A DNA stretch of 64,000 nucleotides. Source: Nocardioides sp. W7. Its GTDB lineage: Bacteria; Actinomycetota; Actinomycetes; Propionibacteriales; Nocardioidaceae. Both the position numbers and the translations under genes were made by a program. Location of the stretch: contig NZ_CP095078.1 of the NCBI RefSeq assembly GCF_022919075.1, positions 5,022,001 through 5,086,000 on the forward strand, written 5' to 3'. Under the pieces are notes generated by a model. It saw nothing but the letters and a program-made list of their open reading frames with translations. It did no database searches and had not been told where the DNA came from. Shown here one piece after another: positions 25,517 through 54,459 of this stretch (within the stretch, counting starts at the first letter, position 1; each line of letters begins with the position of its first letter).

Positions 25517-25600
25517 TTCATCACGGTATGCAGATCAGTTCGCACCTCCCACGGCGTACCCACCATGGGAGGTGCGAGCTCACCTGCATACCGTGATGAA
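25517..25600. repeat. 84-bp nested perfect palindrome
   Basis: Outer arms TTCATCACGGTATGCAG and CTGCATACCGTGATGAA pair perfectly over 17 bp. After a 7/7 internal loop, inner arms CGCACCTCCCA and TGGGAGGTGCG pair over 11 bp around a 14-base loop. It lies between the end of the SDR gene and the arcC promoter, so it could terminate SDR-operon transcription, but it is much longer than needed. No transposase or target duplication is evident. Confidence 0.7.
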
Positions 25601-25649: not shown

Positions 25650-26387
25650 TCAGCGCCCGCCGGCCACCCGCAGCGTCGTACCGGTGACGTACGACGCCCG
25701 CCCGCTCAGCGCGAAGGCGACCACGTCGGCGACCTCCTCGGGCTCGCCGGCCCGGCCCAGCGGCACCAGCGGGCCGACCCGGTCGAGCCGCCCGGGCTCA
25801 CCGGCGTCCTCGTGGATCCGGGTGCGGACGATGCCGGGCGCGACACCGACGACGCGGATCCCGTCGGCGGCGACCTCCTGGGCGAGGCCGACGGTGAGGG
25901 CGTCGACGCCGGCCTTCGCGGCGGCGTATTGGACGTACTCCCCCGGCGAGCCCAGGGTCGCGGCGCCCGAGCTGATGTTGACCAGGACTCCGCCGGAGCC
26001 GCCGTACGAGCGACCGAGGGCGCGGACGGCGGCGCGCGCGACCAGCAGCGCGGCGGTGAGGTTCAGGTCCACGGTGCGCCGCACCACCTCGACCGGGGTC
26101 TCCGCGAGCGGCCCGAGGTGCAGGGTCGCCCCGGCGTTGTTGACGACGCCCGTCAGCGGCCGGGGCGCGGCCGCGAAGAGCTCGTCGACGGCGACGGGTT
26201 CGGTGAGATCGCCCGCGACCAGCATGACCGTGGCCCCGAGATCCGCTGCCTCGGCCGAGCAGGCGGCGGCCGCCGAGGCGTCGGCGCGGTAGCCGAGCAC
26301 CAGGTCGTGGCCGTCGGCCGCGAGCCGGAGCGCGATCGCCCGCCCGATGCCGCGGGTGCCGCCGGTGACCAGGGTGAGAGGACGCAC
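25650..26387 (-). CDS. Short-chain dehydrogenase/reductase
   Basis: 245 residues. Rossmann motif TGGTRGIG near residues 8-15, NNAG, catalytic Ser in NISSGAATL, and YxxxK in YVQYAAAKAG. The C-terminal region has GIVRTRI. NAD(P)-dependent oxidoreductase with unknown substrate, similar to 3-oxoacyl-ACP-reductase-like SDRs. It starts with GTG at 26387, seven bases after the stop of the transporter gene, so it may be the last gene of a four-gene operon. Confidence 0.9.
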   Translation of the reverse strand: MRPLTLVTGGTRGIGRAIALRLAADGHDLVLGYRADASAAAACSAEAADLGATVMLVAGDLTEPVAVDELFAAAPRPLTGVVNNAGATLHLGPLAETPVEVVRRTVDLNLTAALLVARAAVRALGRSYGGSGGVLVNISSGAATLGSPGEYVQYAAAKAGVDALTVGLAQEVAADGIRVVGVAPGIVRTRIHEDAGEPGRLDRVGPLVPLGRAGEPEEVADVVAFALSGRASYVTGTTLRVAGGR

Positions 26388-37333: not shown

Positions 37334-39412
37334 TCATTTCTGGGGGCTCCTCGTCACGATCAGGTTGAGGTACTCGTCCACGCGGAGGGTGAACCCGGGG
37401 TGCAGCGGCACCGTCGAGCCGAACTCCTCGATGATCGCCGGGCCGACCACCTCGGTCCCCGGCGGCAGGTCGGTGCGTTGGTGGAGCGGGGTGTCGACGT
37501 ACCCCTCGTCGGCGTCGAAGCAGACGCTCCTCGTCGGTCGAGTAGCCGGTGACGAAGGAGGCGGCGTATCGAGACCCTCGTGCCGCGCGATCTCCGGCCG
37601 CGTGATCGGCCCGATCCCCGACACCCGCAGGTTGACCCACTCGACCTGCTGGGTGGGGTCGCCGGCGAAGTCGTAGCCGTACGTCGCCCGGTGCTCGGTG
37701 TGGAACGCGTCCGCGACCGCGTCCGGGTCGAGCGGACCGGCCCCGACGGGGACCCGCACCTCGAAGGCCTGTCCGAAGTAGCGCAGGTCGGCGGTGCGCG
37801 CGAAGACGTGCTGCTCCGGGGCGAACCCCTCACCCGACAGGGCGACGGCCGCCCGCGCCGTGAGGTCGTCGTACACGCCCTCGACGACGGTGGGGTCGAG
37901 GGCGTCGGCCAGGGCGACGTGGGTCTGCACGTAGTCGTTCTTGACGTCGACGGTGAGCAGGCCGAACGCCGAGACGTTGCCCGGGTTCGGCGGCACCAGC
38001 ACGGTCGACAGCCCGAGCACGTCCATCAGCCGGCACAGCAGCAGCGACCCGGAGCCGCCGAAGGTGACCAGCACGAAGTCGCGGACGTCCAGCCCACGCT
38101 TGACCGTGACCTGGCGCAGGGCGTTCGCCTGGTTCCACGCGGAGATCTCCAGTACGCCGGCCGCGCACGCCTCCGGGGTGAGCCCCAGCCGGCTCGCGAG
38201 TGCCTCGACGCCGGCCCGGGCGGCGTCGACATCGAGCGGGATCTCCCCGCCGAGCAGGTGCGGCGGGATCCGGCCCAGGACGACGTGGGCGTCGGTGATG
38301 GTGACGTCGGCACCGCCCTTGCCGTAGCAGAGCGGGCCCGGGTCGGCCCCGGCCGACTGCGGGCCGACCTTCAGCGTGCCCTCGGGCGAGAGCCAGGCGA
38401 TCGAGCCGCCGCCGGCACCGACCGTGACGACGTCGATCATCGGGATCTTGCTCGGGAACGCCCCGACGCTGCCCTCGGTGGTGAGGGTGGGTTCACCACC
38501 GATGACCACGCTCACGTCGGTCGACGTCCCGCCGCCGTCGCTCGTGAGGACGCGGTCGAAGCCCGCGACCTTGGCGATCAGCGCGGCCCCCAGCGCGCCC
38601 GCAGCGGGTCCACTCAGGACCGTGGTGATCGGCTGGTGCACGACCTCAGCGGCGCTCAGCACGCCGCCGTTGCTCTTCATGACATAGAAGGGCGGGCTGC
38701 CGTAGGTCTCCAAGCGCTCGGCGATGTTGCGGACGTACGCCGAGAGCCGCGGCTTGACCGCCGCGTCGACGAGCGTGGTCATCGCGCGCTCGTACTCGCG
38801 GTACTCGCGCAGCACCTCGCTGCTGATGCTGACCACCGCGTCCGGGTGCTCCTCGCGCAGGATCTCCAGCATCCTCAGCTCGTGGGCGGGGTCGGCGTAC
38901 GCGTGCAGGAAGCAGACGCCGAGGGTGCCGACCCCGCGGTCGCGGAACCAGCGCGCGGTCTCGCGGGCGCCGTACTCGTCGAAGGGCCGCACCTCGGCCC
39001 CGGTCGGGTCGAGCCGGCCCTCGACACCGCGGACCAGGTCGCGCGGGACGATCCGGTCGGGCTTGACCCAGAAGTAGGAGTTGCCGTAGCCGTCGGGCAC
39101 CGACTGCCGCGCGATCTCGAGCATCGCCTCGTAGCCGGTGTTGGTGATGAACCCCAGCCGGTCGACCTTGCCCTCGAGGAGCTGGTTGGTCGCCACCGTG
39201 GTGCCGTGGCTGACTGAGCTCACGCTGTCGTCGGTGGCGTCGAGCAGCTCCAGCACCTTCGCGATGCCGGTCAGGAAGCCGTCCGCCGGGTTGCCCGGCG
39301 TGGACGGGGTCTTGGTGGTGACCAGCTCGCCGCTGTCCTCGTCGAGCGCCACCACGTCGGTGAACGTGCCGCCCGTGTCGATCCCGATCCGGATCCGTCG
39401 GTCCTCAGCCAT
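37334..39412 (-). CDS. hyuA: Hydantoinase A/oxoprolinase family subunit
   Basis: 692 residues. Actin-like ATPase fold with IRIGIDTGGTFTDVVALDED (about 7-26), SHGTTVATNQLLEG, VLTSDGGGTSTDVSVV, VGAGGGSIAW and GPAIIEEFGSTV near the end. It supplies ATP-driven activation of the cyclic amide bond to HyuB. The ATG at 39412 is used since the family starts with the actin-like phosphate loop. Residues about 613-630 (GLDTPPPSSPATRPTRS) are encoded by a REP-like element in frame in a variable linker, without disrupting the gene. Confidence 0.9.
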   Translation of the reverse strand: MAEDRRIRIGIDTGGTFTDVVALDEDSGELVTTKTPSTPGNPADGFLTGIAKVLELLDATDDSVSSVSHGTTVATNQLLEGKVDRLGFITNTGYEAMLEIARQSVPDGYGNSYFWVKPDRIVPRDLVRGVEGRLDPTGAEVRPFDEYGARETARWFRDRGVGTLGVCFLHAYADPAHELRMLEILREEHPDAVVSISSEVLREYREYERAMTTLVDAAVKPRLSAYVRNIAERLETYGSPPFYVMKSNGGVLSAAEVVHQPITTVLSGPAAGALGAALIAKVAGFDRVLTSDGGGTSTDVSVVIGGEPTLTTEGSVGAFPSKIPMIDVVTVGAGGGSIAWLSPEGTLKVGPQSAGADPGPLCYGKGGADVTITDAHVVLGRIPPHLLGGEIPLDVDAARAGVEALASRLGLTPEACAAGVLEISAWNQANALRQVTVKRGLDVRDFVLVTFGGSGSLLLCRLMDVLGLSTVLVPPNPGNVSAFGLLTVDVKNDYVQTHVALADALDPTVVEGVYDDLTARAAVALSGEGFAPEQHVFARTADLRYFGQAFEVRVPVGAGPLDPDAVADAFHTEHRATYGYDFAGDPTQQVEWVNLRVSGIGPITRPEIARHEGLDTPPPSSPATRPTRSVCFDADEGYVDTPLHQRTDLPPGTEVVGPAIIEEFGSTVPLHPGFTLRVDEYLNLIVTRSPQK
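37535..37576 (-). repeat. REP-like element in frame inside hyuA
   Basis: On the minus strand it begins GGTCTCGATACGCC and ends GGCTACTCGACCG. It shares this start with the element at 46669-46715, in the same reading frame (GLDTP). From memory, similar GGTCTCGATACG...CTCGACC repeats are common between genes in Nocardioides and relatives. Confidence 0.55.
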
Positions 39413-42057: not shown

Positions 42058-43476
42058 CTACGCCCGCGGTCGTACGCCAGCGGCCCCCTCGAACGCCGCC
42101 GCCACCTCGAGCAGCCGCCGGTCGGCGCCGTGCGGGGCCACGAGCTGCACGCCGACCGGCAGGCCGGCGGCCGTCCACCCGGCGGGCACCGAGATCGCGG
42201 GGCAGCCGGTGACGGTGATGAGGTACGCCGAGCGCATCCAGTCCAGGTACGTCGCCATCGGGCGGCCGTTGATCTCGGCGGGGAACTCCTGGTCCGCGGG
42301 GAACGGCGGCACCTGGGAGACCGGCAGCACCAGGACGTCGTACTGCTGGAAGAACAGGCGCATCCGCTCGGCGAGCGTGGTGCGCCGGGTGTAGGCGCGG
42401 GCGACGTCGGCGCCGCTCAGGTGCTCGCCGAGCCGGATGTTGTCGGCGAGCGACTGCTTGAGCTCGCCGGGGTGCTCGGCCAGCAGCGGGCCGAGCTTGG
42501 CGTGCAGGTGCCAGGCGCGCAGGGTGCGGAAGGTGTCGTCGGCCTCGCGCAGGTCGGGGTACGCCGCCGCGACGCGGGCGCCCGCACCGGCGAACGTCGC
42601 GGCGGACGACTCGACGACCGCGGCGACCTCGTCGTCGACCTCGAACGCGCCGCCCAGGTCGACGCTGAGCGCGACCCGGAGGCCGTCGAGTGCCCCGGCG
42701 CCGGGCGGCAGCGCCTCGGCGAAGACCCGGCCGGGGTCGCCGAGCGCGTGCGGCGCCCGAGGGTCGGGTCCGGCCAGCACGCCCAGCAGCAGCGCCAGGT
42801 CGCCCACGTCGCGGGCCATCGGGCCGCCGACCGAGGTGGTCTCCCACTGGTTGTACAGCGGCCACTCCGGCACCCGGCCCAGGCTCGGGCGCAGTCCGAC
42901 CACGCCGCAGAACGACGCGGGGTTGCGCAGCGAACCGCCCATGTCGGAGCCGTCGGCGAGCGGCACCATCCCGGACGCGAGCGCGGCCGCCGCTCCCCCG
43001 CTGGAGCCGCCCGCGCTGCGGGTCGGGTCGTGCGGGTTGCGGGTGGTGCCGAAGACCCGGTTGAAGGTGTGCGAGCCGGCCGCGAACTCCGGCACGTTGG
43101 TCTTGCCGAGCAGGACCACGCCGGCCCGGCGGATCCGCTCGACGATCAGCTCGTCCTCGTCGGGGACGTGGTCGGCGAAGAGCCGGGAGCCGTACGTCGT
43201 GCGCCAACCCGCCGTCGCGTGCGTGTCCTTCACCGCGAACGGCAGGCCGTGCAGGGCACCCAGCCGGCCGCCGTCGGACTGGTAGCGGTCGGCCTCGTCG
43301 GCCCCGGCCCGCGCCCGGTCGGCATCGAGGCTGACGATCGCGTTCAGCTCCGGGTTGCGGGCATCGATCCGCTCCAGGTGCAGCTCCAGCAGCTCGCGGG
43401 CGGAGACCCGTCGCTCCCGCACCGCCGCGACCATCGCGCGGGCGGACGAGTCAGGGGTGATCGGTGGCTGGCTCAC
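42058..43476 (-). CDS. Amidase-signature family hydrolase
   Basis: 472 residues. The Ser-cisSer-Lys triad region is clear: Lys in LPFAVKDTHATAG (about 82-94), the Gly/Ser core AGGSSGGAAAALASG (about 156-170) and the nucleophile in GSDMGGSLRNPASF (about 177-190). The family hydrolyses amides from malonamide to 1-carboxybiuret (AtzE) and allophanate (AtzF). The substrate cannot be read. It lies just downstream of the molybdenum-hydroxylase operon, making it a candidate for a late step of ureide catabolism. The GTG at 43476 lies in a sequence like the palindromic repeats that fill the gap upstream. Confidence 0.88.
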   Translation of the reverse strand: MSQPPITPDSSARAMVAAVRERRVSARELLELHLERIDARNPELNAIVSLDADRARAGADEADRYQSDGGRLGALHGLPFAVKDTHATAGWRTTYGSRLFADHVPDEDELIVERIRRAGVVLLGKTNVPEFAAGSHTFNRVFGTTRNPHDPTRSAGGSSGGAAAALASGMVPLADGSDMGGSLRNPASFCGVVGLRPSLGRVPEWPLYNQWETTSVGGPMARDVGDLALLLGVLAGPDPRAPHALGDPGRVFAEALPPGAGALDGLRVALSVDLGGAFEVDDEVAAVVESSAATFAGAGARVAAAYPDLREADDTFRTLRAWHLHAKLGPLLAEHPGELKQSLADNIRLGEHLSGADVARAYTRRTTLAERMRLFFQQYDVLVLPVSQVPPFPADQEFPAEINGRPMATYLDWMRSAYLITVTGCPAISVPAGWTAAGLPVGVQLVAPHGADRRLLEVAAAFEGAAGVRPRA

Positions 43477-43492: not shown

Positions 43493-43616
43493 GCGGTGAG
43501 CTGTCCACCGTTCGTGGCAGCGGATCGGTGGCTGGCGCACCGCCGACGCGGCGCGACCCGGTCGGGCGGTGAGCTGGGCACCGTTCCGGCCGCAGCATCG
43601 GTGGCTGCCTCACCGC
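43493..43616. repeat. Pair of ~50-bp palindromic repeat units (site 2)
   Basis: Unit 1 is about 43493-43543 and unit 2 about 43565-43616. Both read GCGGTGAGCTG, (T/G)(C/G)CACCGTTC, an inner G/C-rich part, ATCGGTGGCTG and CACCGCC. GGTGAG pairs with CTCACC, and CCACCG with CGGTGG. Unit 2 overlaps the coxG stop codon. A partial copy (ATCGGTGGCTGGCTCACCG) overlaps the amidase start at 43460-43479. The same repeat pair is at 23208-23342. Confidence 0.6.
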
Positions 43617-44248
43617 CGCCGCCCGAACAGCGAGCCCGCGACGACGCCCAGCAGCACCAGGCCGGCGCCGACGGCGATGCCCTTGAGGAAGTCGTCGGGG
43701 GCGGATGCCTTCGCGGGAGCGGTGAAGACCGTGGTCCCGGGGGCTGCGGGGGTCTCGACACCGGCCGGCGCCGGCGCGCCGGACTGATCGAGCGCTGGGC
43801 CGGCGATCGCGGCGCCGACGTTGCCGAAGAACTCGCCGGCCATCCGCTTCGAGACGCTGGTGAGCATCCGCTGGCCCACGCCGCCGACCATCCCGCCGAC
43901 CGTCGCGTCGGCGTCGTACGACACCTCGGTGCCGCCGTCGACCTCGGCGAACGAGACGGCGACCCGGGCGTCGACCGTGCCCGGCGCACCGGACCCCGAC
44001 AGCGTCATCACCAGCGAGCGCTCCGGGACCAGGTCGGAGAGCGTGCAGGTGCCGGCGTAGGTGCCCTTGATCGCGGCCACGCCGGCGGTGACGGTCATGT
44101 CGTAGGCGTGCTCGTTCCCAGGGATCGGGGGGCGGGCCGCCAGCCGCTCGCAGCCGGGGATGGTGGCCACGAGCACGGCCGGGTCGAGCAGGGCGTCCCA
44201 CACCTGGTTGATCGGCGCGGCGATGACGTTCGAACCCTGGATCCTCAT
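43610..44248 (-). CDS. CoxG-like SRPBCC protein with C-terminal membrane anchor
   Basis: 212 residues. SRPBCC domain (about 1-145: MRIQGSNVIAAPINQVWDAL, then PGCERLA and GTYAGTC), a Pro/Ala linker, and a C-terminal transmembrane helix (GIAVGAGLVLLGVVAGSLFG, about 189-208) ending RRR. CoxG proteins accompany aerobic CO-dehydrogenase-type enzymes; a mycobacterial CoxG has been reported to carry menaquinone for its enzyme. Here it is the last gene of the operon, its ATG overlapping the large-subunit stop. It could connect the hydroxylase to the quinone pool. Confidence 0.85.
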   Translation of the reverse strand: MRIQGSNVIAAPINQVWDALLDPAVLVATIPGCERLAARPPIPGNEHAYDMTVTAGVAAIKGTYAGTCTLSDLVPERSLVMTLSGSGAPGTVDARVAVSFAEVDGGTEVSYDADATVGGMVGGVGQRMLTSVSKRMAGEFFGNVGAAIAGPALDQSGAPAPAGVETPAAPGTTVFTAPAKASAPDDFLKGIAVGAGLVLLGVVAGSLFGRRR

Positions 44249-46656
44249 GCGGTGTGCTCCTGGCTGGGGTGGGACTGGCGCAGGTGGAAGAGCTCGGACG
44301 GCGAGATGGGCATCGCGGTGATCGCCAGGCCCGGGATGGACAGCCTCTCGGCGTCCTCGATCGCGGCCGCGAACACTGCGGCCGACGGGATCACGCCCGC
44401 CTCCCCCGCGCCCTTGATGCCGAGCGGGTTCAGCGGTGACGGGGTCTCGAGGTGGTCGATGTCGATGCCGTCGGGGACCTCGGTGACGTACGGCATCAGG
44501 AAGTCCATGAAGGAGGCGTTCTGCAGCTGGCCGTTCTCGTCGTACGCCATCCGCTCGTAGAGCGCGCCGGCCACGCCCTGGGCGACGCCGCCGTGGATCT
44601 GGCCCTCGACGATCATCGGATTGATCAGCTTCCCGCAGTCGTGGACGACGGCGTACTTCAGGATGGTGATCTCCGCCGTCTCCGGGTCGGTCTCGACGAT
44701 CACCGCGTGCATGCCGGAGGCGAACGTCGCCCGCTCGGGGCTGTAGAAGTCGCGGCCCTCGAGGCCCGGCTCCTCGTCCTCGGGCACCGGCGGCTTGCCC
44801 GGGTCGCCGACCGAGAACTGGGTCGCCGCCTTCGACGCCTCGTCGAAGGCGTAGCGCAGCGGGTTCGAGAGCACCGAGACCGTGCCCAGGTCGAGCGAGC
44901 TGCCCGGCGAGCCCTTCACCGAGACGACGCCGTCGACGATCTCCAGGTCCTCCTCGGACGCCTCGAGCGCCTCGGCGGCGATCTTCAGCACCTTCTCCTT
45001 GGCCCGCCTGGCGGCCAGGTGGATCGCCGAGCCGCTCATCACGGCGGCCCGCGAGGCGAAGGTGCCGACGGCGTACGGCATCCGCCGGGTGTCGCCGGTG
45101 ACGACCTCGACGTCCTCCAGTCGGACCCCCAGCTCGTCGGCGACCAGCTGCGCGAACACGGTCGCGTGCCCCTGGCCCTGGGTGGTCAGGCCGGTGGCGA
45201 CCTTGACCTTGCCGGTGGTCTCGATGTGCACGTGCGCGCCCTCGTAGGGGCCGACGCCGGTGCCCTCGACGTAGCAGGCCAGGCCGATGCCGACCCGCCG
45301 ACCGACCGCGGCCATCTCCTTCTGGAACGCGGGGAACTCGTCCCAGCCGACCAGCGCCTTGATCTTCTCCAGCGAGGCCGGGTAGTCGCCGGAGTCGTAC
45401 TCCAGCTCCCGCCCGTCCTGGAAGATCAGCCCCTGGTCGTAGGGGAACTCGTCGGGCTGGATGAAGTTCGTGGCCCGCACCTCCGCGCGGTCCTTGCCGA
45501 GGTACTCGGCGATCGCGTCCATGGTGCGCTCCATGACGAAGCAGCCCTGCGGCCGCCCGGCGCCGCGGTACGGCGTGACCATCACGGTGTTGGTGTAGAC
45601 CGACTCGAAGACGACCCGGTAGACCTCGGGCTTGTACGGCCCGAGCAGCTGGGTCGAGGTGATGATCGGGACGATCAGGCCGTACGGCGTGTACGCGCCG
45701 TGGTCGTGCCAGAACGCCACGTCGAGCCCGAGCAGACGGCCGTCGTCGTCGAACCCGACCTCGACGTGGTGCACCTGGCCGCGCTCGTGGGCGCTGGAGA
45801 TGAAGTGCTCGCGGCGGTCCTCGGTGAACTTCACCGTGCGGCCCAGCGCGCGGGCCGCCAGCGGGACGAGCAGCTCCTCGGGCCACGGGTGGTTGATCTT
45901 CACGCCGAAGCCGCCGCCCACGTCGGGGGTGATCACGTCGACCTGGCCGAGGTCGAGCTCCAGCTTCACCGCGACGACCGCGCGCACGCCGGTCGAGCTC
46001 TGGGTCGAGGTCCACACCTGCATCCGGTTGAGGTCGGGGTCCCAGCGGGCGACCGTGCCGCGGCCCTCCATCGGCGTGCAGGCGCTGCGCTCGACGGTGA
46101 GGTCGAGCTCGAGGCGGTGCGGCGCCTTCGCGATCGCCGCCTGCGCGTCGCCGGTCTGCTGCTCCATCCGGGCGCCGACGTTGCCCGGCACGTCCTCGTG
46201 GACCAGCCGGTCCGCGGCGCGGGCGGCGTCGATGCCGACGACGGGCGGCAGCACGTCGTACGTCACCCGGATGCGGTCGAGCGCGTCCTCGGCGACGTAG
46301 CGGTCCTCGGCGACCACGAACGCCACCGCCTCGCCGGCGTAGTTCACCTCGTCCTTGGCCAGGGCGTACTGCGTGCGGCCGTGAGTCAGGGCCGGGTGCG
46401 GGATCAGCAGCGGCAGCGGCTCGGCCATCGGACCGGTCAGGTCGTCGTGGGTCCAGACGGCGTGCACGCCCTCGAGGTCGAGCACCGCGTCGACGTCGAT
46501 GTCGACGATCCGGGCGTGCGCGTGCGGGCTGCGCAGCACCGCCGCGTGCAGGGTCGCCGGGCCTACAGCCACGTCGTCGACGTAGCGCCCCTGTCCGCGC
46601 AGGAACCGCTGGTCCTCGACCCGCTGCACCCCCTGGCCCATCAGCTTCGTGGTCAC
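44245..46656 (-). CDS. Molybdenum hydroxylase large subunit (xanthine dehydrogenase/CoxL family)
   Basis: 803 residues from GTG 46656, overlapping the iron-sulfur subunit stop. Mo-pterin binding segments include DVGGGFGVK, TPYRGAGRPQGCFVME (about 379-394) and QGQGHATVFAQLVADELG. The catalytic Glu is in IKGAGEAGVIPS near the C-terminus. The loop is the YRGAGR type, not the AYxCSFR of true form I CO dehydrogenase, so CO is an unlikely substrate. Family members hydroxylate heterocycles with water and pass electrons via FeS and FAD. A nucleobase permease heads the operon, which suggests a purine or pyrimidine substrate such as uracil or xanthine. Confidence 0.9.
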   Translation of the reverse strand: MTTKLMGQGVQRVEDQRFLRGQGRYVDDVAVGPATLHAAVLRSPHAHARIVDIDVDAVLDLEGVHAVWTHDDLTGPMAEPLPLLIPHPALTHGRTQYALAKDEVNYAGEAVAFVVAEDRYVAEDALDRIRVTYDVLPPVVGIDAARAADRLVHEDVPGNVGARMEQQTGDAQAAIAKAPHRLELDLTVERSACTPMEGRGTVARWDPDLNRMQVWTSTQSSTGVRAVVAVKLELDLGQVDVITPDVGGGFGVKINHPWPEELLVPLAARALGRTVKFTEDRREHFISSAHERGQVHHVEVGFDDDGRLLGLDVAFWHDHGAYTPYGLIVPIITSTQLLGPYKPEVYRVVFESVYTNTVMVTPYRGAGRPQGCFVMERTMDAIAEYLGKDRAEVRATNFIQPDEFPYDQGLIFQDGRELEYDSGDYPASLEKIKALVGWDEFPAFQKEMAAVGRRVGIGLACYVEGTGVGPYEGAHVHIETTGKVKVATGLTTQGQGHATVFAQLVADELGVRLEDVEVVTGDTRRMPYAVGTFASRAAVMSGSAIHLAARRAKEKVLKIAAEALEASEEDLEIVDGVVSVKGSPGSSLDLGTVSVLSNPLRYAFDEASKAATQFSVGDPGKPPVPEDEEPGLEGRDFYSPERATFASGMHAVIVETDPETAEITILKYAVVHDCGKLINPMIVEGQIHGGVAQGVAGALYERMAYDENGQLQNASFMDFLMPYVTEVPDGIDIDHLETPSPLNPLGIKGAGEAGVIPSAAVFAAAIEDAERLSIPGLAITAMPISPSELFHLRQSHPSQEHTA

Positions 46657-47186
46657 GGCGTTTCCTCGTTGGTCGAGGAGCCCTCGCGAGGAACGAGCGA
46701 GGGCGTATCGAGACCCAGCTCGGCGGCTCGCTCCACGGCCCTGACGATGTTCTGGTAGCCGGTGCAGCGGCACAGGTTGCCGGCGACCATCTCGCGGCAC
46801 TCCTCGTGCGTGGGGGTCGGGTTGGCCCGCAGCCCCGCGGTGATGGTGGTCAGGAAGCCCGGCGTGCAGAAGCCGCACTGCAGGCCGTGGCACTCCACGA
46901 ACGCCTGCTGCACGTTGCTCAGGGTGCCGTCGGGACGGGCCAGCCCCTCGACGGTGGTGATCTCCTGGCCCTGCGCGGAGACCGCGAACATCAGGCAGGC
47001 GCGCACCGGGGCACCGTCGAGCAGCACCGTGCAGGCGCCGCACACGCCGTGCTCGCAGCCGACGTGGGTGCCGGTGAGGCCGAGGTCGTGGCGCAGCGCG
47101 TCCGAGAGCAGCCGCCGACCCGGCACCCGGACGTCGTACGACGCACCGTTCACACTCAGGCGTACGTCGTGCAGCTCCTCGCTCAC
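46653..47186 (-). CDS. Molybdenum hydroxylase 2Fe-2S subunit
   Basis: 177 residues. Plant-type ferredoxin cluster (CEHGVCGACTVLLDG) and C-terminal helical cluster domain (CHGLQCGFCTPG then NLCRCTGYQNI): eight cysteines for two [2Fe-2S] centres. It passes electrons from molybdenum to FAD. The last about 20 residues (GLDTPSLVPREGSSTNE plus ETP) are not family-like; they are encoded by a REP-like element at 46669-46715 that extends the C-terminus. Stop and start overlap both neighbours by GTGA. Confidence 0.92.
   Translation of the reverse strand: MSEELHDVRLSVNGASYDVRVPGRRLLSDALRHDLGLTGTHVGCEHGVCGACTVLLDGAPVRACLMFAVSAQGQEITTVEGLARPDGTLSNVQQAFVECHGLQCGFCTPGFLTTITAGLRANPTPTHEECREMVAGNLCRCTGYQNIVRAVERAAELGLDTPSLVPREGSSTNEETP
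46669..46715 (-). repeat. REP-like element forming the C-terminus of the 2Fe-2S subunit gene
   Basis: The minus strand begins GGTCTCGATACGCC, contains CCCTCGC/GCGAGGG arms, and ends GGTCGA-like TCGACCAA. It shares the GGTCTCGATACGCC start and reading frame with the element in hyuA. It replaces or extends the normal end of the protein. Confidence 0.65.
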
Positions 47187-48022
47187 GGTGCCCCCTCCCG
47201 GGATCGGAGCTCCGCGTCCCGGACCGCCGACCCGACCACCCGCTCGGTGAGCACCCGCACCAGCTGGGAGCGGTACGCCGCGGTCGCGTGGATGTCGCCG
47301 ACGGGATCGAGCTCGGCCAGCGCGGCCGCGCCCCGCTCCCCGGCCGGGACGCCGCTCAGGTCGACGACCGTCGGCACGTCGCTGACCGACACGAACCCCG
47401 CCTTGACCGTCTCGCCGTCGGCCAGCGCCGCGACCCCGCACAGCGCGTAGTCGCCGTGCCGCCGCGCGATCTCCTCGAAGGCCACGCCGGCCCCGGCCGG
47501 AAGAGCCGGGAAGTCCGCCGACACCGCGATCTCGTCGGGGGCCAGCGACGACTCCAGCGGACCGAGGAACAGCTCGGCCGCGGCGATCGTGCGTCGGCCG
47601 CGCACCGAGGCCACCTCCACCGAGCCGCCGAGCAGGGTGAGCACGACCGGCATCTCGGCGGCCGCGTCCGCATGCACCAGCGAGCCCACCGTGGTGCCGC
47701 GGTTGCGGATCGTCGCGTGGGCGACGTGGGCCAGGGCCAGGCTGACGAGCGGCTGCGTGCGTCGTACCTCCGCCGAGGCGAGGACGTCGGCGTGCCGGGC
47801 CAGCGCCCCGATCCGGACCCCCCGGTCGTCGACCCGGATGCCGGCCAGCTCGGCCAGCCCGTTGATGTCGACCAGCGCGCTCGGCTGGGCCAGCCGCATC
47901 GACAGCAGCGGCACCAGGCTCTGGCCGCCGGCCAGCACCTTGGCGTGCGGGTCGGCGGCCAGCGTCGCGATCGCCTCGTCGAGGGTCGACGGGCGGTGGT
48001 ACGCGAACGGTGCGGGCTTCAC
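47183..48022 (-). CDS. Molybdenum hydroxylase FAD-binding subunit
   Basis: 279 residues of the CO-dehydrogenase medium-subunit type. FAD-binding motifs AGGQSLVPLLSMRL (about 31-44) and ATIRNRGTTVGSLVHADAAA (about 103-122) are seen, with the C-terminal domain following. It accepts electrons from the [2Fe-2S] subunit. The GTG overlaps the permease stop. Confidence 0.92.
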   Translation of the reverse strand: MKPAPFAYHRPSTLDEAIATLAADPHAKVLAGGQSLVPLLSMRLAQPSALVDINGLAELAGIRVDDRGVRIGALARHADVLASAEVRRTQPLVSLALAHVAHATIRNRGTTVGSLVHADAAAEMPVVLTLLGGSVEVASVRGRRTIAAAELFLGPLESSLAPDEIAVSADFPALPAGAGVAFEEIARRHGDYALCGVAALADGETVKAGFVSVSDVPTVVDLSGVPAGERGAAALAELDPVGDIHATAAYRSQLVRVLTERVVGSAVRDAELRSREGAP

Positions 48023-49377
48023 AGGTTCCGGGTCACCTCGCCCGCGGAGGCGTTCAGGTTGCGGGCCACCAGGTGGTAGTAGGCGATGACGACGATCGTG
48101 CCGAACGCGATGCCGGTGAGCGCGAAGTCGTCGGTGATCTCCAAGGTGACGTCGCCGACGCCGATGATGATGCCGGCGGCCAGACCGACCAGGTTGACGG
48201 GATTGGCGAAGTCGACCCGGTTGTCGACCCAGATCTTGGCGCCGACCAGGCCGATCATCCCGTAGAGGACGACGGTGATGCCGCCGAGGACGCCGCCCGG
48301 GGTCGCGTTCACGATGGCGCCGAACTTCGGGCACAGACCCAGCAGGATCGCCACGATGGCCGCCGCGTAGTAGGCGGCGGTCGAGTAGACCTTGGTCGCA
48401 CCCATCACGCCGATGTTCTCGGCGTACGTCGTCGTCGGGCTGCCCCCGAACAGGCTGGCCAGGGCGGTCGCGGCACCGTCGGCGCCGAGGGCCCGGCCCA
48501 TGTAGGGGTCCAGGTTCTCGCCGGTCATCTCGGCGACCGCCTTGACGTGGCCGGTGTTCTCGGCGATCAGCGCGATCACGCCCGGCAGCACGAGCAGGAT
48601 GAAGGTCAGCGAGAAGCTCGGGCCGTGTACGACGTCCACGCCGTCGGCGAGGGTGCCGCTCGGCAGGCCGATCCAGTCGGCGGCCTGCACGCCCGCCCAG
48701 GTCACCCGGTCGTGCTCGGTGGCCTCGGTCGCACCGCCGAGCACCGAGGTGATCGGGCCGAAGACGCCGTCGAAGAGCCACGAGACCAGGTAGCCGAAGA
48801 CCAGCGCCAGCAGCACGGCGATCCGCGACCAGAAGCCGGGGAGCAGCACCGCGGCGGCCACCATGAAGGTGGCGGTGAGCAGCGCGACCCACTGGTCCTG
48901 CGGCCAGTAGACGTCCGCGACCACCGGCGCCAGGTTGAAGCCGATGAGCATGACGACCGCGCCGGTGACGGCCGGCGGCAGGATCTTGTGGATCAGGCCC
49001 GCGCCGGCGAAGTGCACCAGCACGCCGACCGCCAGCAGCACCAGGCCGGCGACCAGGATCGCCCCGGTCACGTCCGCGGAGTCACCGTCCTGGCCCCGGA
49101 TCGCGACGACGCCGCCCACGAACGACGCGCTGGTCCCGAGGTAGCTGGGCACCTTGTTGCTGCACACCAGCAGGAACATGATCGTGCAGATCCCGGAGAA
49201 CATGATGGCGAGGTTGGGGTCGAGCCCCATCACCAGCGGGAAGACGAACGTCGCCCCGAACATCGCCACGACGTGCTGGGCGCCGAGGCCCGCCGTCTTC
49301 CCCCAGCTCAGCCGCTGGTGCGGCGCGACCGCCACCCCCGGAGCCGGGTCGACCTTCTCCCACGAGAACAACGACAT
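48019..49377 (-). CDS. NCS2-family nucleobase (uracil/xanthine) permease
   Basis: 452 residues with about 13-14 hydrophobic helices. NCS2 signatures: VAMFGATFVFPLVMGLDPNL (about 34-53), AENTGHVKAVAEMTGENLDP with the conserved Glu, GGSPTTTYAENIGVMGATKV, and PGGVLGGITVVLYGMIG. The family moves uracil, xanthine or urate with protons. It is the first gene of the permease-hydroxylase operon and the best clue to the enzyme's substrate. ATG 49377 follows GGAGGTGC. Confidence 0.92.
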   Translation of the reverse strand: MSLFSWEKVDPAPGVAVAPHQRLSWGKTAGLGAQHVVAMFGATFVFPLVMGLDPNLAIMFSGICTIMFLLVCSNKVPSYLGTSASFVGGVVAIRGQDGDSADVTGAILVAGLVLLAVGVLVHFAGAGLIHKILPPAVTGAVVMLIGFNLAPVVADVYWPQDQWVALLTATFMVAAAVLLPGFWSRIAVLLALVFGYLVSWLFDGVFGPITSVLGGATEATEHDRVTWAGVQAADWIGLPSGTLADGVDVVHGPSFSLTFILLVLPGVIALIAENTGHVKAVAEMTGENLDPYMGRALGADGAATALASLFGGSPTTTYAENIGVMGATKVYSTAAYYAAAIVAILLGLCPKFGAIVNATPGGVLGGITVVLYGMIGLVGAKIWVDNRVDFANPVNLVGLAAGIIIGVGDVTLEITDDFALTGIAFGTIVVIAYYHLVARNLNASAGEVTRNL

Positions 49378-49522
49378 GCCCGCACCTCCATCACCGGCGG
49401 CCCGCGGCCGCAGAGGAACCACAACGTAGTGATCCCCATGACACACCCTCGACGGCCACTCCTGCCGAAGGAACGCCGAATCCGCTGGCACCACTTGACC
49501 GCCGAGTCAGCAGAAGTGGTGG

Positions 49523-49553
49523 GCCGAGTCAGCACTACTGGTGCTGACTCGGC
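49523..49553 (-). terminator. Terminator hairpin after the pucR-type gene
   Basis: Perfect 13-bp stem GCCGAGTCAGCAC / GTGCTGACTCGGC with a TACTG loop. A second partial GCCGAGTCAGCA copy is at 49501-49512, and AAGCTCAGGAGGC is directly duplicated at 49554-49579, running into the regulator's 3' end. Confidence 0.75.
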
Positions 49554-49570: not shown

Positions 49571-50842
49571 TCAGGAGGCGATCTCCAGGACGCGGAGGGC
49601 GACGGCGACGTCGAGGCGCAGGTGCGGGTCGGAGGAGAGCGGGCCGAGGAGACGTTCGAGCTTGGCCACCCGGTAGCGCATCGTGTTGTAGTGGAAGAAC
49701 TGCACGCGAGCGGCCTCGGCCACGTTGAAGTTCGTGTCCAGCAGCACCTGGAGGGTCTCGCGCAGGTCCGCGGCCTCGGTCGTGGCCAGGGCGAGCGGGC
49801 CGAGCACGTCGCGGGTGAAGGCCTCCAGCTCGCGGTCGTCGGTGATCAGCGCGATCAGCCGGTGCAGGCCGAGCTGGTCGAAGAAGGTCGTCGAGCCGCC
49901 GCCGTGCACCCGGCGCCCCACCTCGACCGCGCGCCGGGCCTGCGCGTAGGCGCCCGGCAGGTCCTCGAGATCGACGGCCACCCGACTCACCCCGACCGAG
50001 AACGGCCGGCGGCCACCGCCCTTGTCGCCGGCCACGGCCGTCACCACCCGTCGTACGACGGCCTCGCCGGCCACCGACTCCTCGGCGCCGGACGGGACCG
50101 GCAGCAGACTGACGACCTCGGAGGAGAAGTCGACGCAGGGGATGCCGGGGTCGACGCCGCGACCGACCTGCCGCCAGGCCGCCGCGAACCGCTCCTGCCA
50201 CTGCCGGCGGACGGCGCGCGCGACCGGCGCCTCGTCCGGTCCGGGCGGGTCGATCTCGGCGGCGACCACGACGACCGGCCGGAGCAGGTCCCAGCCGAAG
50301 GTGTCGGCGTGCTCGGCGACGTACTCCTCCCCGCCGGCACGGCGCAGGAAGACGTCGCGCAGGAAGTCGCCCTGGTACTTGTTCTCGACCGCGGAGACGG
50401 CCTGCTCGCGGATGATGACCAGGGCCGCCACGGCCGCCGCCCGCTCGAGCGCGTGCACGTCGTCGGAGGAGATCGGCGCGCCCGGCCGGACGCAGACGAG
50501 CCGGGCCAGGTCGGTGCCGGCCGCCGCGACCCGCAGCGTGCGCACCTCGCCGTCCCCCACCACCGCTCCGTGGCCCCCGATCCGCTCGACCCGGACCCGG
50601 CCGGTCGGGTCGACGAGATCGTGGTCGGCGAGCTGGGTGCGCTGCGCCTCGGAGAGCGCACCGGCACGCTCGCGGCCGTCGGTCGAGGTCACCAGGACGC
50701 CCACGTCGAGCACCCGCGCCACCTCGGCCGCGATCCCCCGCAGGTCGCCACCCTCGAGGGCGATCTGGGTGAGGCCGGTGTGCAGCGCGTCGACCCGGGC
50801 CAGCGCCTCGGCGGCGCCACCGTCACCGGTGCCTATCAACAT
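49571..50842 (-). CDS. PucR-family transcriptional regulator
   Basis: 423 residues. An N-terminal sensory region, a GGDEF-like central domain (about 195-310, VVVVAAEIDPPG to FSVGVSRV), and the PucR C-terminal helix-turn-helix ETLQVLLDTNFNVAEAARVQ then FHYNTMRYRVAKLERLLG. Such regulators often control purine, pyrimidine or amino-acid catabolism in actinobacteria. It sits between the permease-hydroxylase operon and the divergent fdrA operon and is the natural candidate to control both. The start at 50842 leaves a 76-bp divergent promoter region. Confidence 0.92.
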   Translation of the reverse strand: MLIGTGDGGAAEALARVDALHTGLTQIALEGGDLRGIAAEVARVLDVGVLVTSTDGRERAGALSEAQRTQLADHDLVDPTGRVRVERIGGHGAVVGDGEVRTLRVAAAGTDLARLVCVRPGAPISSDDVHALERAAAVAALVIIREQAVSAVENKYQGDFLRDVFLRRAGGEEYVAEHADTFGWDLLRPVVVVAAEIDPPGPDEAPVARAVRRQWQERFAAAWRQVGRGVDPGIPCVDFSSEVVSLLPVPSGAEESVAGEAVVRRVVTAVAGDKGGGRRPFSVGVSRVAVDLEDLPGAYAQARRAVEVGRRVHGGGSTTFFDQLGLHRLIALITDDRELEAFTRDVLGPLALATTEAADLRETLQVLLDTNFNVAEAARVQFFHYNTMRYRVAKLERLLGPLSSDPHLRLDVAVALRVLEIAS

Positions 50843-50918: not shown

Positions 50919-51641
50919 GTGAGGCCCCACCGCCCGCTCCCGGCCCAGCACCGGGCCCCCCTTCCGGTCAGCGCACCGCCGCGCGTCCACGAGCGGCTCC
51001 GGGCCGCGCCGGACGGCCCGGTCACCGTGCTCCACCGAGGTCCGCACGCCGTGTACGTCGACCTGCACGGCTGGTGCACCGGCGTCGTCGACGCGCAGGC
51101 CGCCCAGGTGCCGTGCGCCCTGCGCGCCGCGGCCGGCGTGCTCGCCGAGCTCCCGGCGCGGACCGCGGAGGTCCGCGACGGCGTGCTCCACCTCGACGGT
51201 CGGCCGCTGGTCGTGGGCCGGTTCGTCCGGGTCGGCGTCCCCGCACTGGCGCTCACCGCCGACCGGCCGGCACCGCTGGGGGTCGAGGAGGTGCGCAGCC
51301 TGGTCGGCGCCGGCGACGGGCTCACGCCGTACGGCGACGACCAGCTCTGCGGCTGGCTGGCCGTGCACCGGGCCGCCGGCGTCGCGACCCCCGAGGTCGA
51401 CGCGGCGGTGCGGGCGATGGCGTACCGCACCACGCTGCTCTCCGCCACCCTGCTCGACTGCGCCCTGCACGGGGAGGCACTGCCCGAGTTCGGGGACTGG
51501 CTGCGGGTCGTCGGCACCCCTGCCGAGCGAGGCCGGGCCGCGGCGCTGGCGGCGATCGGACACACCTCCGGCCGCGGTCTGCTCACCGGGGGCCGGCGTG
51601 CCCTCGCCGGACTCGCACGGCGCAGCGGAAGCGCGGCATGA
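50919..51641 (+). CDS. DUF2877 domain protein (fdrA operon)
   Basis: 240 residues. The late Gly-rich segment LVGAGDGLTPYGDDQLCGWL (about 128-147) is the strongest DUF2877 signature; the C-terminus ends with HTSGRGLLTGG. In E. coli the corresponding gene (ylbF) lies with fdrA and ylbE in the allantoin cluster tied to oxamate carbamoyltransferase. The biochemical role of this subunit is not clear. The GTG at 50919 is the first start after the promoter, and the TGA overlaps the fdrA ATG. Confidence 0.82.
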   Translation: MRPHRPLPAQHRAPLPVSAPPRVHERLRAAPDGPVTVLHRGPHAVYVDLHGWCTGVVDAQAAQVPCALRAAAGVLAELPARTAEVRDGVLHLDGRPLVVGRFVRVGVPALALTADRPAPLGVEEVRSLVGAGDGLTPYGDDQLCGWLAVHRAAGVATPEVDAAVRAMAYRTTLLSATLLDCALHGEALPEFGDWLRVVGTPAERGRAAALAAIGHTSGRGLLTGGRRALAGLARRSGSAA

Positions 51642-53044
51642 GGACCCACGTCGAGCTCCGTCCCGGCGCGTACGCCGACTCCGTCGCCCTGCTCCAGGTC
51701 AGCCGCAGCGTCCAGCAGGTCGAGGGCGTGCTCGCGGCCCAGGTCGCGATGGCGACCGCACTGAACCTCGAGGTGCTCGCCGGCATGGGCTTCGACGTGC
51801 CCGCCGAGGCCACCACCAACGACCTCGTCGTCGCGCTGCGCGTCGCGGACGACGCCGCCGTCGAACGCGCCCTGGCCGCGGTCGCCGAGGCGCTGGCCGC
51901 GACGAGCCGCCGACCGACCGGCGGTGGCGAGGTGGCACCCCACCGCACCACGGCCACCGCGCTGCGCGACGCCCCCGGCGGGCTGGTCCTGGTCTCCGTC
52001 GCCGGCCAGCACGCCCTCGTCGAGGCGATGGACGCCCTCGACGCGGGCAGCGACGTGATGGTCTTCAGCGACAACGTCCCGCTCGAGCACGAGATCGCCC
52101 TGAAGCGCACCGCCGCCGAGCGCGGGCTGCTGGTGCTGGGCCCCGACTGCGGGACGGCCGTCGTCGACGGGGTCGGTCTCGGCTTCGCCAACGTGGTCCG
52201 CCCCGGACCGGTCGGCCTGGTCGCCGCGTCCGGCACCGGCTGCCAGCAGCTCCTCGCGCTGCTCGACCACGCCGGCGTCGGCGTCTCCTCCGCGCTCGGC
52301 GTCGGCGGCCGTGACCTGTCCACCGAGGTCGGCGGCCGGTCCACCACCGAGGCCCTGCGCCGGCTCGACCTCGACCCGTCGGTCGAGCTCGTCGTCCTCG
52401 TCTCCAAGCCCCCGGCCCCCGAGGTCGCCGCCACCGTGCAGGAGTACGCCGACCGCCTCGGCACGCCGGTCGAGCTCGCGCTCCTGGGTGCCGGCCGCCC
52501 CGACCTGACCGCGGCCGCCGAGGCGGTGCTGCGCCGGCTCGGCCACGCCGTCCCCACCTGGCCGGTCACCGGGAGCACCGGTCCGGCCACCCGCGGTCGG
52601 CGGCTGCACGGGCTCTTCGTCGGCGGCACGCTCTGCCAGGAGGCCAGGCTGATCGCGGAGGAGCGGCTCGGCACCGACCACCCGTTCACCGACTTCGGCG
52701 ACGACGCCTACACCGCCGGCCGGGCCCATCCGATGATCGACCCGACGCTGCGCCTGGAGCACCTCGCCCGGGTCGCCGCCGACCCGGACACGGCGGTGCT
52801 CCTGCTCGACGTCGTGCTGGGCCACGGCGCGGAGCCGGACCCGGCCGCGCTCCTCGCGCCGGCCATCACCGGGCTCGATGTCCCCGTCGTCGTCAGCCTG
52901 GTCGGCACCGCCGCCGACCCGCAGGACCTGGCCCGCCAGGCCGACGCGCTCGCCGGCGCCGGTGCCGAGGTGCACCTGTCCAACGCCGGCGCGGCCCGGC
53001 GCGCGGTGGCCCTCGTCGAGCAGCGCCTGGAGGCCCTGTCATGA
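51638..53044 (+). CDS. fdrA: FdrA-type protein (acyl-CoA synthetase-like carbamoyltransferase subunit)
   Basis: 468 residues. It resembles the succinyl-CoA synthetase alpha chain: VMVFSDNVPLEHEIALKR (about 146-163), VLGPDCGTAVV, the phosphate/CoA-loop LVAASGTGCQQLLALLDHAG (about 195-214), GVGGRDLS, and a repeat-like C-terminal half. FdrA with YlbE/DUF2877 has been linked to oxamate carbamoyltransferase, which moves a carbamoyl group from oxalurate to phosphate. There are no allantoinase or allantoicase genes here. ATGA overlaps tie it to both neighbours. Confidence 0.85.
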   Translation: MRTHVELRPGAYADSVALLQVSRSVQQVEGVLAAQVAMATALNLEVLAGMGFDVPAEATTNDLVVALRVADDAAVERALAAVAEALAATSRRPTGGGEVAPHRTTATALRDAPGGLVLVSVAGQHALVEAMDALDAGSDVMVFSDNVPLEHEIALKRTAAERGLLVLGPDCGTAVVDGVGLGFANVVRPGPVGLVAASGTGCQQLLALLDHAGVGVSSALGVGGRDLSTEVGGRSTTEALRRLDLDPSVELVVLVSKPPAPEVAATVQEYADRLGTPVELALLGAGRPDLTAAAEAVLRRLGHAVPTWPVTGSTGPATRGRRLHGLFVGGTLCQEARLIAEERLGTDHPFTDFGDDAYTAGRAHPMIDPTLRLEHLARVAADPDTAVLLLDVVLGHGAEPDPAALLAPAITGLDVPVVVSLVGTAADPQDLARQADALAGAGAEVHLSNAGAARRAVALVEQRLEALS

Positions 53045-54459
53045 CCAGCACCGTCGTGACCAGCACCAGCACCGTCGTCTCCGTCGGCACCGACCTGCTC
53101 GCCGATGCCCTCGCCGGTCAGGCGGTCGAGGTCCAGCGCGTCGACTGGCGCCCGCCGATGCCCGGCACGGAGTCCGATCTGGCCACCGTCGCCGCGGACC
53201 CGCTGCGCCACGACGCCAACCGGCGCGCCCTCGACGCCATGCTCGGTGTGACCGCCCGGCTGGTCGACGTCGCCCCGGCTGCCGAGGTGCTCGGCCTGCA
53301 GCGCGGCGAGTTCCTGCACGCCGGCCCGCCGATCACCTGGGACCGCGCGTCCGGCCCGCTGCGCGGCGGGCTGATGGCCGGTGCCGCGCTCGAGGGGCTC
53401 GTCGACGACCCGGAGGACGCCGTCGCGCTCTTCGAGTCCGGCTCCTCGGTGAGCCTGGAGCCGTGCCACCACCGCGCCACAGTCGGGCCGATGGCCGGGG
53501 TGGTCACCCCGGGCATGTGGATGTTCGTGCTCGAGGATCCGGCGAGCGGGCGTCGTACCCACTGCTCGCTCAACGAGGGCCTCGGCAAGGTGCTCCGGTA
53601 CGGCGCCTACTCCCCCGAGGTGCTCACCCGGCTGCGCTGGATGGGCGACGTGCTGGGCCCGCTGCTGCAGGCCGCCGTGCGCGCCAGCGAGCCCGTCGAC
53701 GTGACCGGCATCCTCACCCAGATGCTGCAGATGGGCGACGAGGCCCACAACCGCAACCGCGCCGGGACCCTGATGCTGCTGCGCGACCTCGCCCCGGCGA
53801 TGGTCCTCAGCAGTCACGAGGCCGGCGCGGCCACCGCCGACGTCGCCGAGGCGATCCGGTTCGTCGGCGCCAACGACCACTTCTTCCTCAACCTGGCGAT
53901 GCCGGCCTGCAAGCTCGCGCTGGACGCCGCCCGCGGCATCGAGGGCTCGACGATGGTCGTGGCGATGGCCCGCAACGGCACCGACTTCGGCATCCAGGTC
54001 GCGGGCACCGGCGACGAGTGGTTCACCGGTCCGGCCCAGGTCGCCGACGGGCTCTACCTGGGCGACTACGGACCCGACGACGCCAACCCCGACATCGGCG
54101 ACTCCGCGATCACCGAGACCGCCGGCATCGGCGGCTTCGCGATGGCCACCGCCCCCGCGATCGTGCGCCTGGTCGGCGGCAGCGTCCCGGACGCGCTCGC
54201 GACCACCCGCCGGATGCACGAGATCACCCTCGGCGAGAACCCGCGCTGGTCGGTGCCGGTGCTCGACTTCCAGGGCACCCCGACCGGCATCGACGTCACC
54301 CGGGTCTGCCGCACCGGCATCCTGCCGCAGATCAACACCGGCATGGCCGGCAAGGTCGCCGGCACCGGTCAGGTCGGTGCCGGCCTGGTGACCCCGCCGG
54401 CCGAGATCTTCCCGAAGGCGCTGGCGCGACTGGCCGAGCTGGCCCGGGGCCGGGGCTGA
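53041..54459 (+). CDS. DUF1116 (YlbE-type) protein, carbamoyltransferase partner of FdrA
   Basis: 472 residues of the DUF1116 family: RVDWRPPMPG near the start, GPPITWDRASGPLRGGLMAG (about 97-116), LMLLRDLAPAM, FVGANDHFFLNLAMPACKLA (about 276-295) and VAMARNGTDFGIQVAGTG. E. coli YlbE is the FdrA partner in the oxamate carbamoyltransferase locus. The gene overlaps fdrA by ATGA and ends the operon. No terminator hairpin is obvious in the 71 bases before the next gene. Confidence 0.85.
   Translation: MTSTVVTSTSTVVSVGTDLLADALAGQAVEVQRVDWRPPMPGTESDLATVAADPLRHDANRRALDAMLGVTARLVDVAPAAEVLGLQRGEFLHAGPPITWDRASGPLRGGLMAGAALEGLVDDPEDAVALFESGSSVSLEPCHHRATVGPMAGVVTPGMWMFVLEDPASGRRTHCSLNEGLGKVLRYGAYSPEVLTRLRWMGDVLGPLLQAAVRASEPVDVTGILTQMLQMGDEAHNRNRAGTLMLLRDLAPAMVLSSHEAGAATADVAEAIRFVGANDHFFLNLAMPACKLALDAARGIEGSTMVVAMARNGTDFGIQVAGTGDEWFTGPAQVADGLYLGDYGPDDANPDIGDSAITETAGIGGFAMATAPAIVRLVGGSVPDALATTRRMHEITLGENPRWSVPVLDFQGTPTGIDVTRVCRTGILPQINTGMAGKVAGTGQVGAGLVTPPAEIFPKALARLAELARGRG

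Follow-up and report, generated by a model that had tools for sequence, protein, structure and literature searches.

Barbiturase-linked allHFG operon of Nocardioides sp. W7 and its probable part in oxidative uracil degradation

A 64,000-nucleotide stretch of the Nocardioides sp. W7 chromosome (contig NZ_CP095078.1, positions 5,022,001 to 5,086,000; hereafter the window) contains an allHFG operon, which encodes the three subunit families of the AllFGH transcarbamylase, together with genes for a barbiturase and a carbamate kinase. The cluster that holds these genes most probably serves oxidative pyrimidine (uracil) degradation, with AllFGH taking the place of ureidomalonase. An earlier, sequence-only reading of the window had described the operon and proposed that the trio works outside allantoin fermentation on another carbamoyl donor; it had omitted the barbiturase and kinase genes. 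The proposal is supported by the linkage of the trio to barbiturase and by the lack of co-occurrence with allantoinase described below.

The allHFG operon

The operon and its divergent regulator gene comprised the following features:

50919-51641, forward strand: AllH (DUF2877), GTG start, third subunit of the AllFGH transcarbamylase (Pfam PF11392, 70.5 bits)
51638-53044, forward strand: AllF (FdrA), ATG start (Ligase_CoA PF00549, 109.9 bits; NCBIfam FdrA NF004760, 363 bits, below the cut-off of 433)
53041-54459, forward strand: AllG (DUF1116/YlbE), ATG start (PF06545, 312 bits)
49571-50842, reverse strand: PucR-type regulator with HTH_30 and GGDEF_2 (PF13556, PF17853), divergent from allHFG

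Direct reading of the sequence showed an ATGA overlap at both the allH/allF and the allF/allG junctions. Coordinates, junctions and Pfam matches agreed with the sequence-only description of a DUF2877-fdrA-DUF1116 operon diverging from pucR, and the operon is confirmed as real; the domain hits, together with conservation across many genomes, exclude chance as its source. AllF passed the cut-off of PF00549, and AllH and AllG passed their Pfam cut-offs; the complete AllFGH gene set is encoded in the window. Identity to the Escherichia coli subunits was 38% for AllF, 45% for AllG, and 29% for the C-terminal part of AllH, and the window AllH retained all 12 positions that were invariant over 29 AllH sequences, E. 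coli among these (GxGxGLTPxxDD...HTSG). AllF had the solved relative 3DMY, “Protein fdrA” (212 bits), and AllG had the solved relative 3CLQ; the profile search with AllH gave no solved relative, and an AllH structure model built from two sequences was discarded (pLDDT 45).

In E. coli, fdrA, ylbE, and ylbF jointly encode the oxamic transcarbamylase, which catalyzes the reaction oxalurate + Pi <-> oxamate + carbamoyl phosphate (Kim and Kim 2024, PMC11326118), and the Pfam families are now named AllG and AllH. The suggestion that the locus would be a place to learn what DUF2877 does is outdated accordingly, the role having been known in outline since that paper; what is new here is the partner pathway.

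Barbiturase and carbamate kinase

The two genes and a repeat beside them were located as follows:

23373-24467, reverse strand: barbiturase (PF09663, 478 bits)
24467-25414, reverse strand: carbamate kinase (TIGR00746, 346 bits against a cut-off of 358; NF009007, 312 bits, above cut-off)
25517-25600, no strand assigned: inverted repeat of two 38-nt arms upstream of the kinase-barbiturase pair (89% complementary, 8-nt loop)

The barbiturase ATG and the kinase stop codon have one base in common, and the pair lies 25 to 30 kb from allHFG, the distance from the kinase gene being 25.5 kb. The kinase was 41% identical to the E. coli carbamate kinase AllK. The 18-nt core of the inverted repeat was unique in the window, and the repeat is a candidate operator or attenuator.

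The barbiturase gene was the only match to PF09663 (ring-opening amidohydrolase) in the whole genome. Its product shared 81.5% identity with the barbiturase of PDB 5HWE, whose sequence matches the Rhodococcus erythropolis NBRC 15567 gene at 100% identity, and scored 635 bits against this entry and at most 327 bits against cyanuric acid hydrolases. The residues N190, H320, K324, V344, and S345 correspond to the barbiturase specificity signature Asn-His-Lys-Val-Ser/Ala (PMC3758960) and assign the protein to group VI of the AtzD/Bar family. Judged by its sequence, the product is a barbiturase and not a cyanuric acid hydrolase. The NCBIfam equivalog NF052395 labels the same protein cyanuric acid amidohydrolase, above cut-off (472 versus 360 bits).

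Linkage and co-occurrence of AllG and barbiturase

A total of 149 genomes of the same family, Nocardioidaceae, were compared. AllG was found in 70 and barbiturase in 66 of them; 64 genomes had both, 6 had AllG only, 2 had barbiturase only, and 77 had neither (Fisher p = 2e-32, with genomes treated as independent). Among the six genomes with AllG only, five carried a divergent AllG, and in one (G065) allHFG lay at the edge of a contig of 5.6 kb. AllG and barbiturase occurred on the same contig in 54 cases, 7 to 36 kb apart in 53 and spanning the origin of a circular contig in the remaining one. The carbamate kinase gene lay no more than 200 bp from barbiturase in 65 of the 66 genomes.

Eleven clusters were compared in full, with membership as detected by clustering. 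Barbiturase, carbamate kinase, CoxG, the L and M subunits of a molybdenum (Mo) hydroxylase, and a permease were present in all 11, and HyuA, HyuB, the Mo hydroxylase S subunit, AllF, and AllG in 10. Hardly any other genes lay between the cluster members in three compact genomes (G011, G033, and G041), which indicates that the antiporter, two-component, and peptidase genes of the window are insertions or neighbors.

The sequence-only reading had asked whether an actinobacterial AllG clade tracks with barbiturase or Mo hydroxylases, and the answer was positive. In a tree of 86 AllG sequences, one clade (SH-aLRT support 94) contained 56 rows, 55 from barbiturase genomes and the remaining one from the 5.6-kb contig of G065. 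Extra AllG copies that barbiturase genomes carry at other sites branched outside this clade, and the E. coli AllG lay far outside it.

In a sample of 396 genomes across the phylum, 25 had PF09663 matches, and 23 of these had AllG. All 23 genomes with the barbiturase signature were AllG positive, and the two without AllG had the signature R-T-R-G-G of the cyanuric acid hydrolase type. In other classes the genes formed one co-directional operon, barbiturase-NCS2 permease-carbamate kinase-AllH-AllF-AllG-MoM-MoS-MoL-CoxG, with pucR divergent; the kinase gene adjoins allH there, pucR lies beside barbiturase, and the shortest form was barbiturase-AllH-AllF-AllG-MoM-MoS-MoL. The differing gene orders make a merely frozen neighborhood unlikely.

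The Rhodococcus contrast

The characterized barbiturase is that of Rhodococcus erythropolis, in which the route consists of uracil/thymine dehydrogenase, barbiturase, and ureidomalonase (PMC3758960); the passage of that paper citing Soong et al. 2001 and 2002 has the oxidative pyrimidine pathway end in malonate and urea. Forty named barbiturase genomes, 5 of Rhodococcus and 35 others, were searched as whole genomes. AllG was present in 35/35 of the non-Rhodococcus genomes; none was found in four of the five Rhodococcus genomes, and R. koreensis had only a divergent type, so that the barbiturase-type AllG was missing from all five. Carbamate kinase was found in 35/35 versus 1/5. In the five Rhodococcus genomes an amidase gene follows barbiturase, and neither carbamate kinase nor AllFGH is in the locus. 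The transcarbamylase and the kinase are thus largely present or missing together, and missing where the urea-forming enzyme is documented. The amidase directly after barbiturase (L152 11233-12726; also in L154, L155, and L177; mutual identity 76 to 84%) is a candidate gene for ureidomalonase.

The proposed pathway and the other cluster genes

The remaining cluster genes of the window were as follows:

48019-49377, reverse strand: NCS2 permease of uracil type (RutG/uracil permease models score best)
47183-48022, reverse strand: Mo hydroxylase FAD subunit (PF00941)
46653-47186, reverse strand: Mo hydroxylase 2Fe-2S subunit (PF01799, PF00111)
44245-46656, reverse strand: Mo hydroxylase large subunit, candidate uracil dehydrogenase (NF040766, 1501 bits)
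43610-44248, reverse strand: CoxG-like protein of the Mo hydroxylase (PF06240)
42058-43476, reverse strand: amidase-signature hydrolase, candidate malonamate amidase (PF01425, 359 bits)
37334-39412, reverse strand: HyuA-like ATP-dependent amidohydrolase subunit (PF01968/PF05378)
35416-37326, reverse strand: HyuB-like subunit (PF02538)
25650-26387, reverse strand: SDR oxidoreductase, accessory and not constant (PF13561; 4/11 clusters)

In the proposed scheme, the permease would take up uracil, the Mo hydroxylase would convert it, as the presumed substrate, to barbiturate, and barbiturase would open the ring to give ureidomalonate (N-carbamoyl malonamate). AllFGH would then split ureidomalonate, its predicted substrate, with Pi into malonamate and carbamoyl phosphate; carbamate kinase would use the latter with ADP to form ATP, NH3, and CO2; and the amidase would release malonate and NH3 from malonamate, which is the weakest step. 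Relative to the Rhodococcus route, the net effect would be a gain of one ATP and no urea to handle. The barbiturase, transcarbamylase, and kinase steps are predicted from protein families and gene linkage. Oxalurate and ureidomalonate are both N-acylureas and differ by one CH2, oxalurate being the shorter. By analogy, AllFGH acting on ureidomalonate as the E. coli enzyme does on oxalurate would be the simplest reading.

The permease scored 178 bits against the uracil permease and 47 bits against the uric acid-xanthine permease in PDB. Between its gene and pucR, GCCGAGTCAGCA occurs three times at 49501-49553, twice in direct and once in inverted orientation, forming a 13-bp perfect hairpin; within the window, exact matches to GCCGAGTCAGCA are confined to this interval. 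The three-subunit Mo hydroxylase set, which the sequence-only reading had correctly named as the partner block, spans 44245-48022. Its large subunit has the PYRGAGR motif and lacks the CSFR-type loop, which we take to be the CoxL active-site mark of form I aerobic CO dehydrogenase, and this argues against assignment to that form; the best solved relative was quinoline 2-oxidoreductase (447 bits). NF040766 labels the large subunit CO dehydrogenase large subunit (group 5), a label that may mislead searches for CO oxidizers. Malonamidase E2 was related only remotely to the window amidase (95 bits), and a malonamidase function was unsupported. HyuAB may act in the opening of a different ring, for instance that of thymine-derived 5-methylbarbiturate.

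Several further genes were noted around barbiturase in other genomes. A cytosine deaminase-like amidohydrolase gene lay within the barbiturase-AllFGH operon of two clusters (L096 11899-13209 and L111 68-1195). CoA-transferase III genes were near the kinase-barbiturase pair in 46 of 80 loci, and near two of them was a fused AccD/AccA-type carboxyltransferase gene; genes of these two kinds lay near barbiturase in L161 (11110-12297 and 16370-17806) and L152 (4340-5521). Together they perhaps convert malonate via malonyl-CoA to acetyl-CoA. Away from barbiturase, divergent actinobacterial AllG families (L121-L131 and L132-L135) were found, some loci with AllF and a kinase on the opposite strand and some with SDR genes and AllF undetected; these families likely act on other substrates.

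Alternative explanations

Several observations weigh against the proposed uracil pathway. Shared ancestry is uncorrected in the Fisher tests. HyuA and HyuB, whose conservation in Nocardioidaceae nearly reaches that of the core, have no place in the scheme, and the amidase gene is not beside several of the clusters. In the AllG tree, a sister clade (union SH-aLRT 97) comes with Mo hydroxylase and HyuAB and no barbiturase. Urease is encoded in the genome as well, and its allantoin locus is a possible source of oxalurate. Finally, the window amidase, 42% identical to the amidase following barbiturase in Rhodococcus, could itself be ureidomalonase.

This last possibility is the core of one rival explanation, in which the window amidase is a true ureidomalonase forming malonate and urea, and AllFGH and the kinase act on another N-acylurea, such as a thymine-derived product (5-methylbarbiturate) or the product of the HyuAB substrate. 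It would draw on the resemblance to the Rhodococcus amidase, on the HyuAB genes left unexplained, and on the sister clade, which combines HyuAB, Mo hydroxylase, and AllFG. However, several clusters in genomes with barbiturase, kinase, and barbiturase-type AllG showed no such amidase alongside, and in the shortest clusters (L092 and L093) barbiturase is followed directly by AllHFG, with carbamate kinase and amidase undetected there. Furthermore, 52 of the 64 Nocardioidaceae with AllG and barbiturase lack urease, so that urea would be a dead end there. We consider this explanation improbable. Urease itself showed no association with the cluster either way (12/52 versus 12/73, p = 0.50), and the idea that cluster genomes are as a general rule urease negative was dropped. 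The sister-clade loci L114, L116, and L117 (L115 in part) have the arrangement Mo hydroxylase-HyuA-HyuB-AllF-AllG(-AllH) with barbiturase absent, and ring opening in a related pathway of this clade may fall to HyuAB.

Slightly less credible still is that AllFGH is an ordinary oxamic transcarbamylase that clears oxalurate from the cell's own purine/allantoin pathway, and that the proximity of barbiturase reflects a general nucleobase island. Genes of that pathway do exist at 2.254-2.274 Mb, comprising urate oxidase, HIU hydrolase, OHCU decarboxylase, allantoinase (at 2.267 Mb, the only one of curated level in the genome), allantoate amidohydrolase, and a PucG-like transaminase, presumably able to form oxalurate. 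E. coli AllFGH, moreover, works on oxalurate (PMC11326118). The sequence-only reading had named a complete allantoin-to-oxalurate pathway elsewhere in the genome with shared regulation as the finding that would speak against its proposal. The allantoin locus agrees with this in part, but it is unlinked, lies 2.8 Mb from allHFG, has a regulator of a different type, and encodes an amidase of its own with a fused HpxZ domain (oxalurate catabolism), which leaves it without obvious need for AllFGH. In line with the same reading, the checks made of the window revealed no allantoin genes. Across the 149 genomes, AllG and allantoinase were not associated (31/39/26/53, odds ratio 1.6, p = 0.18), and 33 genomes with AllG and barbiturase had no curated-level allantoinase. 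The enterobacterial ALL pathway is marked by such co-occurrence, or by linkage, with allantoinase and the remaining all genes, and neither was seen here. Rhodococcus, which has barbiturase, lacks the barbiturase-type AllG. In one purine locus (L067 16732-18204), an HpxZ-like domain fused to an amidase is a candidate one-protein oxalurate hydrolase.

It is very unlikely that the module is mainly anabolic and passes ureidomalonate-derived carbamoyl phosphate to arginine or pyrimidine synthesis instead of the kinase; carbamoyl phosphate is a well-known shared precursor (stated for E. coli in PMC11326118), but the kinase gene overlaps barbiturase in the window and stays close to it across the family, an arrangement that resembles the catabolic allFGHK operon of E. 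coli.

Implications and comparison with known systems

Beyond the window, it is likely, if a little less so than for the cluster itself, that a phosphorolytic, ATP-conserving branch of uracil degradation with AllFGH as ureidomalonate transcarbamylase occurs in at least nine actinobacterial families and more than one class, the urea-releasing Rhodococcus pathway being the exception. No literature linking AllFGH to barbiturate or ureidomalonate was found among open-licence papers, which is weak evidence. If the proposal is true, another substrate and a definite function can be given to a transcarbamylase family that was recognized only in 2024, and many actinobacterial FdrA/DUF1116/DUF2877 genes unlinked to allantoin genes are explained. 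The oxidative uracil pathway, viewed as rare and urea forming, would become common, with a predicted ATP gain. The cluster also supplies directly testable gene candidates for two poorly assigned activities, uracil/thymine dehydrogenase and, on the Rhodococcus side, ureidomalonase, and it exposes misleading database names, namely, cyanuric acid hydrolase for the barbiturase and CO dehydrogenase for the Mo hydroxylase.

The window shares with the oxidative pyrimidine pathway locus of R. erythropolis an orthologous barbiturase, PucR, the NCS2 permease, Mo hydroxylase subunits, and CoxG; the Rhodococcus locus differs in having an amidase straight after barbiturase and no AllFGH or kinase, and its products are malonate and urea. 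Nitrifiers carry AllFGHK beside biuret/triuret genes (PMC12625717), and there too AllFGH and carbamate kinase stand away from allantoin genes; that paper mentions no barbiturase, however, and assumes oxalurate as the substrate. With the AllFGH and AllK system of E. coli (PMC11326118, PMC9843812), the window has in common the three subunit families in one operon and a carbamate kinase partner. The gene order is H-F-G in the window and F-G-H in E. coli, no allantoin genes lie near the window trio, and the trio is linked instead to barbiturase, Mo hydroxylase, and a uracil-type permease, with ureidomalonate rather than oxalurate as its predicted substrate.

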